Positions 42,648 through 59,098 of a stretch of 64,000 bases of DNA are shown piece by piece; the stretch's first letter is position 1, and each line of letters opens with the position of its first letter. The position numbers and the translations under genes were made by a program. The notes beneath the pieces are model-generated. The model had not been told where the DNA came from and made no database searches. It worked only from the letters and a program-made list of their open reading frames with translations. The DNA comes from Patescibacteria group bacterium (GTDB taxonomy: Bacteria > Patescibacteriota > Gracilibacteria > Peribacterales > Peribacteraceae): the NCBI GenBank assembly GCA_018814875.1, contig JAHIYH010000031.1:1-64000 (forward strand), read 5' to 3'.

Positions 42648-42841
42648 CTGTGCCTTATAAACTTGATCTTATTTTACCCGCTTTTTTGGAATATTTTTGG
42701 CATCAGTATAGGAATTTATGCATCTAGTGGAATAGAGGTATCGCCATGGCGGGTCTGGTTGGTGTGTTGCAGTGGCGAATTGGCAAGTTTTTTTTGGTGT
42801 TAGCTGGCAGAGCTTCGCAGTATTCCTGTATTCTCTCGCAT

Positions 42842-43813
42842 ATGGAACCTAAGCGTGCACTTATTCTTGGAATTACAGGACAAGATGGAAGTTACCTTGC
42901 TGAGGTGCTTCTAGAAAAAGATTACGAAGTTCACGGACTGATCAGAAGGTCTGCCACAGGCAACACCTGCAATATCGACCACTTTATAGATGACATAGAA
43001 CTGCACAGAGGAGATCTATCGGATGCACCATCACTTTACAGCGCAATCAACACAGTTCGTCCTGATGAGATCTATAACGAAGCAGATCAAGATCATGCTG
43101 GTTGGAGTTATAGCGTCGTTGATTATGCTTCGGATATCACAGGCGCAGCTCCTGGTAGAATCTTGGAGATCATCAGACAGATTGATACCAAGATAAAATT
43201 CTTCCAGCCACTTACATCCAATATGTTTGGTCAGGCAGAGGAGTGCCCACAGAATGAAGAAACCAAACTTATGCCGCAGAGTCCTTACGCGTGTGCAAAG
43301 GCTTATGCTTTTATGCTCACACGTTATTACAGGCAGGTGCATAACATCTTTGCTTCTACTGCTATCTTCTTTAATCACGAATCTCCACGTCGCACTCCCT
43401 CGTATGTTTCGCGAAAGATTACACAGGCTGCAGTTAGAATTTCACTTGGATTACAAGATAAACTTTATTTGGGTGATATAGAACCAGAGATAGATTTTGG
43501 ATACGCAAAGGAATACATGGAGACGGCATGGAAAATAATGCAACAAGACAAGCCCGATGACTTTGTAATTGGAACAGGCGAAGCACATTCAGTTAGAGAG
43601 CTTATGGAAGCAGCGTTTAAAGCAGTTGGTCTGAATGCAGATGATTATGTAGAGATTGATCCAAAACTCATCCGTCCAGGCAAAACAAGTACTCTAATTG
43701 CAGATTATTCCAAGGCAAATAAAGTATTTGGATACGAACCAAAAGTTAAATATGAGGATTTGGTGAAGATCATGATTGAGCATGATAAACGAATTGAGAC
43801 GAGGACGGTCTAA
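42842..43813 (+). CDS. GDP-mannose 4,6-dehydratase homologue with altered catalytic motifs
   Basis: [51 protein letters not shown], but YNEADQDHAGWS and PLTSNMFG in place of YNLAAQSHV and STSELYG. Confidence 0.88.
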   Translation: MEPKRALILGITGQDGSYLAEVLLEKDYEVHGLIRRSATGNTCNIDHFIDDIELHRGDLSDAPSLYSAINTVRPDEIYNEADQDHAGWSYSVVDYASDITGAAPGRILEIIRQIDTKIKFFQPLTSNMFGQAEECPQNEETKLMPQSPYACAKAYAFMLTRYYRQVHNIFASTAIFFNHESPRRTPSYVSRKITQAAVRISLGLQDKLYLGDIEPEIDFGYAKEYMETAWKIMQQDKPDDFVIGTGEAHSVRELMEAAFKAVGLNADDYVEIDPKLIRPGKTSTLIADYSKANKVFGYEPKVKYEDLVKIMIEHDKRIETRTV

Positions 43814-43911
43814 ACAATCAACAATCAACAGTCAACACGCGCCTGCGGCGCTCTCAACAATCAACAATCAACAATCAACACGGGTGCTAAGCATCCTCTT
43901 AACAATCAACT
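43814..43911. repeat. Left arm of word repeat flanking the FHB gene (CAATCAA words)
   Basis: acaatcaacaatcaacagtcaacacgcgcctgcggcgctctcaacaatcaacaatcaacaatcaacacg... Confidence 0.85.
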
Positions 43912-43947
43912 TGTTTTGTATGAATGTATTTGGTAGATTCGCGTGCT

Positions 43948-44313
43948 ATGTCGGCTTTTAGATTCAAACAGTTCAAAGTTTATAAAGACGCGAAAGAATT
44001 TCGAAGGCAAGTTTCGCGTCTTGTAATCAAGCTAACGGATAAGCGAGCGTATGATCTTTCCGCTCAAATAAGAAGAGCAAGTCTTTCGATTGTTCTCAAT
44101 ATTGCGGAAGGATCAGCAAAGAAATCAGATATTGATTTTGCGAGGTTTTTAGAAATATCATCAGGATCTGTTAATGAAGTTGTTGCAGGATTTGATGTTG
44201 CACACGACGAAAATCTGATTTCCAGTGAAGATTTAAATCTAATTGAAGATAAAGCAAGAGAAATTATAAATCAATTAGGAGGCTTTATAAAAAGCTTAAG
44301 AGTTAAAAGTTGA
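43948..44313 (+). CDS. Four-helix-bundle protein (23S rRNA intervening-sequence protein family)
   Basis: FKQFKVYKDAKEFRRQVSRL, AQIRRASLSIVLNIAEGSAKKSDIDFARFLEISSGSVNEV. Confidence 0.92.
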   Translation: MSAFRFKQFKVYKDAKEFRRQVSRLVIKLTDKRAYDLSAQIRRASLSIVLNIAEGSAKKSDIDFARFLEISSGSVNEVVAGFDVAHDENLISSEDLNLIEDKAREIINQLGGFIKSLRVKS

Positions 44314-44356
44314 TAGTTGATAGTTGATAGTTGATAGCGCAGCGTGTTGATTGTTA
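44306..44356. repeat. Right arm of word repeat flanking the FHB gene (GTTGATA/GTTGATTGTT words)
   Basis: aaaagttgatagttgatagttgatagttgatagcgcagcgtgttgattgtta; the first word supplies the FHB stop TGA. Confidence 0.85.
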
Positions 44357-45466
44357 TACCGCTACCGATTCAATAACATCACACACCCTCTCCATCTGCT
44401 CATCTGTAATAGCTAGCCCTGATGGAAGATATAGACCTCTTTCAGCAACGTATTCGGTCACAGGGAACGTTTCTTCTGTGGGATAAAGCTCACTGACCGC
44501 AGGTTGCTCGTGGCAGGGAACAAAGAATGTTCTGGTATCAACTCCTTGCTCTTTAAGTTTGGCCGCAAACTCATCACGGCTCATGCCGAACTCATCTTCA
44601 ATCAAGATTGCATACATCCAGTACACGTTTTTCGCGTAATCTTTTGTAATGGGAGTGCGAATACCTTTGATACCTTGCAGTCTCTCTGTATAAAAATTCG
44701 CCATGTGCTCTTTTGTCTTCAAAAACTCTTCCAAGTGTTCCAGTTGCCCAAGGCCCAAGGCTGCTTGCAGATTGGTGACTCGATAGTTGTATCCGAGTTT
44801 TTCGTGGACGAATCGTTTTTGCTTTGAGTGCGACAAATCTTTCAATGACCTGACACGTTCTGCGAGCTCATCATCATCTGTACACACCATTCCGCCTTCA
44901 CCGGTTGAAATTATTTTGTTCCCGTAGAAACTAAAGGCACTGATGTTCCCGAGTGATCCACACATTTTTCCTTTATAAGTTCCTCCATGAATTTCTGCAG
45001 CATCTTCTACTACAGAAATACCATGCTTTGCAGCAATTTCTAAAATTGGATCCATGTCGCAGCTATGTCCGTAAATGTGCACAGGCATTATTGCTTTTGT
45101 TTTTGGAGTTATTTTTTCTTCTAATTTGTTCGGATCCATATTGTAAGTATCAGGTTCGACGTCGCAAAATACTGGTTTTGCTCCTGTGTACATAACAGCG
45201 AATACCGAGGCGATCATTGTAAAATCTGGCAGTATCACTTCATCATCTGGGCCAACTTCAAGTGCCTCTAATGCCAAGTGGAGCGCGGTTGTTCCACTAG
45301 TAGTAAGTATCGCGTGTTTAACTCCAATTGTATTTGCAAAGGCTTCTTCAAACTTTCCTATGTAAGCACCTGCGGAAGAAATCCACCCCGTATCCAATGC
45401 ATCATTTACGTACTTCTTTGCAGAAGCGGGGACAACGGGCTCGTTGACTGGTACAAAATCACTCAT
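44354..45466 (-). CDS. DegT/DnrJ/EryC1 aminotransferase, GDP-perosamine-synthase-like
   Basis: TTSGTTALHLALEALEVGPDDEVILPDFTMIA, SFYGNKIISTGEGGMV. Confidence 0.88.
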   Translation of the reverse strand: MSDFVPVNEPVVPASAKKYVNDALDTGWISSAGAYIGKFEEAFANTIGVKHAILTTSGTTALHLALEALEVGPDDEVILPDFTMIASVFAVMYTGAKPVFCDVEPDTYNMDPNKLEEKITPKTKAIMPVHIYGHSCDMDPILEIAAKHGISVVEDAAEIHGGTYKGKMCGSLGNISAFSFYGNKIISTGEGGMVCTDDDELAERVRSLKDLSHSKQKRFVHEKLGYNYRVTNLQAALGLGQLEHLEEFLKTKEHMANFYTERLQGIKGIRTPITKDYAKNVYWMYAILIEDEFGMSRDEFAAKLKEQGVDTRTFFVPCHEQPAVSELYPTEETFPVTEYVAERGLYLPSGLAITDEQMERVCDVIESVAV

Positions 45467-57913: not shown

Positions 57914-59017
57914 ATGATTTTCACAATGATTTCTCTTATATTACCAACGTACAACGAAGCAGAGAACATTCCTGAGCTTCTTCCTAAGATTGAGGAGATC
58001 TTATCGGGCATTCCGCACGAAATTATCATTGTGGATGATGATTCTCCTGATAAAACGTGGCAGGTGGCGTTGGATCTTTCTCAGAATAAAGAAGATGTGC
58101 ACGTTATTCGTAGAGTTGATAAACGAGGGCTTTCCTCTGCAGTCATTGATGGGTTCCTTGCAGCTAAGGGAGATGTATTTGCAGTAATGGATGCGGATGG
58201 GCAGCACGATATGGAATTACTTCCAAAGTTGTACGTAGCAGTTAAGGAAAACAATGGCCTCGCAATTGGATCAAGATATATTGAAGGCGGAAGCGTAGGC
58301 GGTTGGGATGAACGAAGACACTTTTTGAGCAAGATTGCGACAAAGATGGCATTGCATATTTGCAGTGTAAAAGTAAAAGATCCGATGAGTGGATTTTTTG
58401 CACTTGATCGCAAAGTATTTGAAGAAGTTTTACCAAGATTAAATCCAAAGGGATTCAAAATCCTTCTCGACTTACTCGTGCATGTCCCCAAAGAAACCAA
58501 AGCTACGGAAACACCTTACACATTCGGTGTTCGTCAATTAGGAAAGAGCAAACTCTCTTGGAAAGTGCAGATAGAATTTTTGGAATATCTTTACGATGTG
58601 ACTGTAGGAAGATTCATTCCGCTGACATTCGTAAAGTTCTGCATTGTTGGAACATTTGGAGTTTTTGTTCACTTGATAGCGTACGGTGTTATCTCTCGTT
58701 CCATCATGGATGGGGATCCACTGACGATCGGAGGGTTCTCATTTGCAGTAATTGGAGCCACAGAAATTGCAATTATCTTCAATTATCTGCTGAATAACTC
58801 CTGGACATTTGCACATCAAAAGTTACGAGGAACATCAGCAATAGTTGGTTTCTTCAAATACAACGTTGCATGCTCGTTTGGGGCACTGGCAAATTGGGCG
58901 GTTAGTGCTTATCTCTTCTCGATTGGGTGGATTGATTTTCTGGCGGTCTTCACAGGAGCAATTGTTGGAGTTATGTGGAACTACACGATGAATAGGATGT
59001 TTACTTGGCGAAAGTAG
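57914..59017 (+). CDS. GT2 (DPM1-like) fused to a GtrA domain
   Basis: SLILPTYNEAENIPELLPK, IIIVDDDSPDKTWQVA, AVMDADGQHDMELLPKL, then C-terminal four-TM GtrA (FVKFCIVGTFGVFVHLIAYG ... NYTMNRMFTWRK). Confidence 0.93.
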   Translation: MIFTMISLILPTYNEAENIPELLPKIEEILSGIPHEIIIVDDDSPDKTWQVALDLSQNKEDVHVIRRVDKRGLSSAVIDGFLAAKGDVFAVMDADGQHDMELLPKLYVAVKENNGLAIGSRYIEGGSVGGWDERRHFLSKIATKMALHICSVKVKDPMSGFFALDRKVFEEVLPRLNPKGFKILLDLLVHVPKETKATETPYTFGVRQLGKSKLSWKVQIEFLEYLYDVTVGRFIPLTFVKFCIVGTFGVFVHLIAYGVISRSIMDGDPLTIGGFSFAVIGATEIAIIFNYLLNNSWTFAHQKLRGTSAIVGFFKYNVACSFGALANWAVSAYLFSIGWIDFLAVFTGAIVGVMWNYTMNRMFTWRK

Positions 59018-59098
59018 TATTTCGTATTTCGTATCTCGTATTTCGTATCTAGCATGGCCTTTAGACCGAAATACTAAATACTAGATACTAAATACGAT
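59015..59098. repeat. Word-repeat hairpin (GTATTTC / TAGTATTTAGTATC words)
   Basis: agtatttcgtatttcgtatctcgtatttcgtatcta ... ccgaaatactaaatactagatactaaatacgata; contains the stop codon of the 59088-60035 CDS. Confidence 0.85.

Follow-up and report, generated by a model that had tools for sequence, protein, structure and literature searches.

The intervening sequences (IVS) of 23S rRNA, described in Coxiella, Leptospira and others (PMC4990558), are segments of about 430 bp in which an S23p/IVP ORF of the PF05635 family is enclosed in a stem made by terminal inverted repeats (a 28-bp stem in Coxiella), and they have been called selfish, their mobility being hypothesised. IVS are located within rRNA helices and are excised by RNase III. 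A comparable organisation is known from the RAYT/REPIN system (PMC3116915, PMC8266576), in which one protein-coding copy, a Y1 tyrosine (HUH) transposase, is flanked by palindromic repeats, while many extragenic, non-autonomous hairpins carry the same signature, several distinct families occur per genome, and the repeats co-evolve with the protein. Prokaryotic MITEs are likewise short and non-autonomous, with inverted repeats and a target duplication, although the review consulted (PMC10969869) mentions neither helix-bundle proteins nor heptamers. Furthermore, intergenic repeats with a period of 7 have been reported as GGGAATC in Xanthomonas (often in convergent pairs, with 70 in Xcc) and GGGGATT in Nostoc (PMC4692102) and as TAACTGA in Beggiatoaceae (PMC4679880). 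In the parts of these papers that were consulted, such repeats were linked to no protein, and they have been read as regulatory or stabilising. Finally, Avd (PDB 4DWL, 8UBE), an accessory protein of diversity-generating retroelements, has been noted to be related to PF05635 (PMC10053308).

The locus analysed here resembles each of these systems in part. Its protein and its ORF-in-a-stem layout are those of 23S rRNA IVS, yet it lies between two protein-coding genes rather than in a 23S rRNA gene, and no Rfam match was obtained at the locus or at 20 other four-helix-bundle (FHB) loci. It appears to work like RAYT/REPIN, but its only gene encodes an FHB protein, which is unrelated to the Y1 transposases and without known catalysis, and its ends are tandem word arrays rather than single REPs. 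It shares with Avd the fold but not the system, as no reverse transcriptase (RT) is present in the element (TR/VR pairs were not searched for) and genomes with 7-11 FHB genes and no RT match exist (e.g., G011, G017, G039 and G043 of the genomes scanned). MITEs, in turn, are probably derived in most cases from IS elements with a known transposase, none of which is present here. No description of elements of this kind was found in the open-licence articles searched, which included neither subscription papers nor preprints.

Architecture of the FHB locus

The window, i.e., the whole stretch of 64,000 nucleotides that was analysed, belongs to a 1.42-Mb draft genome in 70 contigs (G000; probably Patescibacteria). 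A preliminary description had noted an FHB gene bracketed by complementary word repeats whose outer ends touch the stop codons of the neighbouring genes, and all of these features were confirmed. The features of the locus, together with an ORF-less hairpin of the same window, are as follows.

43813 to 43910, plus strand: left arm, consisting of arrays of the 7-nt word AACAATC (AACAATCAAC six times and one AACAGTCAAC), interrupted by two GC-rich mini-palindromes (about 43837-43855 and 43882-43899) and beginning at the TAA stop of the upstream gene (42746-43813)
43948 to 44313, plus strand: FHB gene (four-helix-bundle protein, 23S rRNA IVP family), the ORF of which is also open from the ATG at 43924 in the same frame, and whose TGA stop lies in the first right-hand word
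44309 to 44355, minus strand: right arm, consisting of four GTTGATA words, the GCGCAGC mini-palindrome and GTGTTGATTGTT, being the reverse complement of the left-arm words and ending in the stop codon of the minus-strand downstream gene (44354-45466)
43813 to 44356: whole element (about 543 bp), proposed autonomous form, arm-FHB-arm
59017 to 59095: ORF-less hairpin with another word (TTTCGTA/TTTAGTA), which is the word of a different FHB element of the same genome (locus L011, contig C37)

The word AACAATCAAC occurs seven times in the window, in each case at this locus, against 0.15 expected. The two arms align over 47-53 nt, including the GC-rich mini-palindrome, and close a long stem when the element is folded as RNA (z -6.9). 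The encoded protein matched TIGR02436 (E 2e-27) and PF05635 (E 3e-27), with scores of 95.5 bits (cut-off 33.8) and 95.6 bits (cut-off 24). While the preliminary description had noted ORF-less hairpins elsewhere in the window, only one clear case was identified there.

The arrangement proved to be far more general than initially described. A tblastn search detected 18, and a PF05635 profile search 21, FHB stretches in the genome, and all 18 of the former were found to be bracketed by inverted word arrays with periods of 6-9 nt, although the word differs between elements (AACAATC, TTAGCTGA, AATAGAAGA, TTCGTTAT, AAAGGTCG, TTTCGTA, ATTGTTCC, TTAGGAC, AAGGAAGGT and others). When each upstream flank was aligned with the reverse complement of each downstream flank, the cognate pair ranked first or second of 18 at all 18 loci, with a summed cognate score of 846 against a maximum of 616 in 100,000 permutations. 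All 22 FHB hits of this genome with usable flanks scored >=28, compared to 16 of 453 other genes, and in five congeneric genomes 69 of 75 FHB loci harbored arms scoring >=26. Chance was therefore rejected as an explanation.

A blind scan of 567 kb of the genome identified 59 inverted word-array pairs, among which 10 of the 12 with a gene-sized loop enclose an FHB gene. The other 49 pairs are mostly mini-hairpins (median 92 bp, median loop 24 nt), of which 43 (88%) carry a word matching an FHB of the same genome (score >=26), against 40% (maximum 55%) when equal numbers of FHB arms from four sister species were used (2000 resamplings). Such a distribution is the pattern of autonomous and non-autonomous elements, and it supports the earlier proposal of an FHB-carrying element with ORF-less relatives. 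It could be argued that the two arms match only because replication template switching homogenises any inverted repeat, the link with FHB being incidental, and the perfect identity of several arms (35 nt at FHB locus L016 and 29 nt at L104) is indeed as expected of recent correction. However, this does not explain the enclosure of FHB genes by gene-sized word hairpins, the presence of arms around FHB genes of many phyla (see below), or the match between ORF-less words and resident FHBs. As a sole explanation it is regarded as the least likely of those considered, though it may well be a component of the preferred one.

Of 58 hairpins with callable neighbours, 49 are mostly intergenic, although only 18% of the sequence is, and they lie a median of 3 nt from the stop end of a gene, against 46 nt from the nearest start (based on crude ORF-based gene calls). 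This location, together with the strong RNA stem and the published reading of heptamer arrays, may be considered compatible with a stationary regulatory system in which FHB is an RNA-binding protein and the hairpins are its 3'-end processing or termination sites, kept by selection, with the word repeats expanding by slippage. This alternative appears highly improbable in view of the turnover and empty sites outlined below.

Distribution across bacteria and evidence for mobility

A scan of GTDB representatives yielded 80 FHB loci from more than 20 phyla, including one record titled as an archaeon. In 48 of the 79 loci tested, the cognate arms exceeded the 99th percentile of mismatched pairs (0.8 expected), with extreme cases such as 22 copies of AGTTCTC in each arm, while about a dozen showed no arms. 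Of 60 elements scored, 55 have a period of 7, and 47 of these 55 contain AG in the 5'-arm word. FHB genes on complete plasmids of cultured cyanobacteria and Riemerella also mostly possess arms (11 of 13 examined), and an assembly artefact of metagenome bins was thus rejected. No match was found in 50,697 phage records with an FHB query of G000, and PADLOC returned no known defence protein.

Word similarity falls in step with protein identity (Mantel 0 of 5000), the word being shared in 80% of pairs at >=80% identity, 34% at 65-80%, 9% at 55-65%, and essentially none below, while the 5' arm tends to be the G-rich one (50 of 68). As plain co-inheritance also produces such a correlation, recognition of the word by the FHB protein remains an inference. 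Notably, orthologous FHB elements at one site in the congeners G002 and G003 carry different words (GTAGTGA versus GGTTATA). Similarly, the rpsG-fusA gap, an insertion hot spot, holds an FHB element in G000, another FHB element with a different word in G004, ORF-less hairpins with other words in G001 and G002, and nothing in G018, G024 and G033, with what look like REP-associated transposase genes and a GIY-YIG-like gene in this interval in different species. Words can, therefore, change in place, or sites are re-used. In some relatives of the same class, including G044 and G055, rpsG reads through TGA codons, pointing to a recoded lineage near the host of the window.

FHB copy number per genome is 11-21 among congeners and 0-21 within the family. 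At the window site itself, the orthologous neighbours in sister genome G001 (92% and 80% identity) enclose no FHB and no words, and the segment is therefore not stably present at this position. A further FHB element of G002 is situated where G003 is empty, although within the genus presence/absence is apparent without a clean junction. The clearest case was observed in plasmids, where Trichormus variabilis and Scytonema carry an FHB element at a site at which the 97-98% identical plasmids of Nostoc linckia, Aulosira and Tolypothrix read AAAAAGTAATTAACAAA. In the filled allele, GTAAT stands on both sides of the insert as a 5-bp target duplication, and the upstream stop codon lies in the duplicated bases, which would explain why arms abut stops. 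Related elements with the same words are located elsewhere in other plasmids, and one of these sites, filled in Nostoc C052/N6 and empty in Nostoc ATCC 53789, is compatible with a TTCTA duplication. In plasmid pNsp_c of the latter strain, a second, different FHB element (word AAAAGGG) is located a few hundred bases downstream of an empty site. Filled and empty pairs were also found in Calothrix, Picosynechococcus and Nostoc edaphicum, whereas the comparison of Dolichospermum with Anabaena 90 was not clean, as another hairpin sits there. It should be noted that only one junction gives an unambiguous 5-bp duplication, the second being blurred by substitutions and others by 10-15% divergence. Elements were, furthermore, located between nrdB and nrdA, in conjugation operons of plasmids, and inside CRISPR-Cas operons of cyanobacterial plasmids (cas6-cas4 and cas10-cmr3).

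The FHB protein and the proposed mechanism

The FHB protein is confidently predicted to form a four-helix bundle (AlphaFold pLDDT 94), matching PDB 2GSC, 2RLD and, at a sequence identity of about 7%, Avd (4DWL; TM 0.73/0.87). In 142 diverse FHBs, Q, S, E and E are invariant and N and R nearly so, spaced along one face of helix 2 with the last E on helix 3, which may represent an active, binding or structural site. No recognised catalytic motif is present, and no RT, Y1 or other nuclease is encoded in the element.

Based on these findings, we propose, with a rough probability of 0.74, that the segment 43813-44356 is one copy of a widespread class of mobile element whose only gene encodes an FHB protein and whose ends are inverted arrays of an element-specific word (6-9 nt, usually 7). 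The FHB oligomer is inferred to recognise its own word array, probably as a folded single strand (a DNA hairpin, or RNA as for its relative Avd), and to bring about integration of the arm-to-arm segment, whether this holds an FHB gene (autonomous) or not (non-autonomous), although the agent of cutting and joining may be FHB itself or a host nuclease or polymerase. Under this model, the word arrays act as multivalent binding sites, while tandem slippage and arm-to-arm correction let the word drift with both arms remaining matched, the protein co-evolving. The alternative raised in the preliminary description, that an FHB protein binds such hairpins, is compatible with this model and is likely part of the mechanism.

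A mobile element moved by other machinery, in which a Y1 transposase, an RT or another nuclease mobilises the hairpins (with or without FHB) in trans and FHB is a passenger, regulator or RNA chaperone, is considered unlikely but remains the strongest competing explanation. In its favour, FHB has the fold of Avd (with a match to phrog_3206, E 0.0085), and FHB counts correlate with those of Y1 transposases (rho 0.51) and, weakly, RTs (rho 0.30), so help in trans is not excluded. In G000, an RT gene lies about 1.2 kb from an FHB element (contig C43, 40129-40755 and 41984-42301), which may reflect a linked retroelement or a coincidence. Conversely, five genomes with 4-9 FHB copies have neither RT nor Y1 matches, indicating that neither is an obligatory partner, and the words follow the FHB lineage. 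In favour of other machinery, genes of the PD-(D/E)XK-like family PF13366 (GxxExxY-type) in the same genus and class (e.g., contig C36 of G000, 1962-2300) are also bracketed by inverted arms, typically TGTCTGAACC followed by GATTACAC-type words, representing a second, unrelated protein in a similar element design. However, PF13366 was found in 10 of 59 genomes, compared to 44 for FHB.

A more speculative possibility is that FHB is itself the recombinase, i.e., a transposase of a fold not previously known to transpose DNA, in which the invariant polar residues (Q48, S55, E62 and E85 of the window protein, with R51 and N59) would form the active or recognition site, and which recognises its own heptamer array as a folded single strand. 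This would explain the orphan heptamer repeats of many bacteria, but it is held only tentatively.

FHB/S23 genes are annotated in very many bacterial genomes with no function, and the present proposal would provide one. The proposed class spans phyla, lacks any recognised transposase and carries inferred recognition words that change from element to element, so that protein-word co-evolution can be read from sequence. It may also offer an origin for rRNA intervening sequences and for the unexplained heptamer repeats of Xanthomonas, Nostoc and Beggiatoaceae, and it would place Avd among the relatives of a mobile-element protein. In the case of Xcc, which encodes an FHB of solved structure (XCC0516, 2GSC), the link to the heptamer repeats is a prediction. 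An inverted-repeat element of another kind is also present in this genome, as a small gene on contig C37 (51948-52305) is flanked by a 79-nt near-perfect inverted repeat (CCTTCGCCTCCCCACTTCGCC...) without word arrays.
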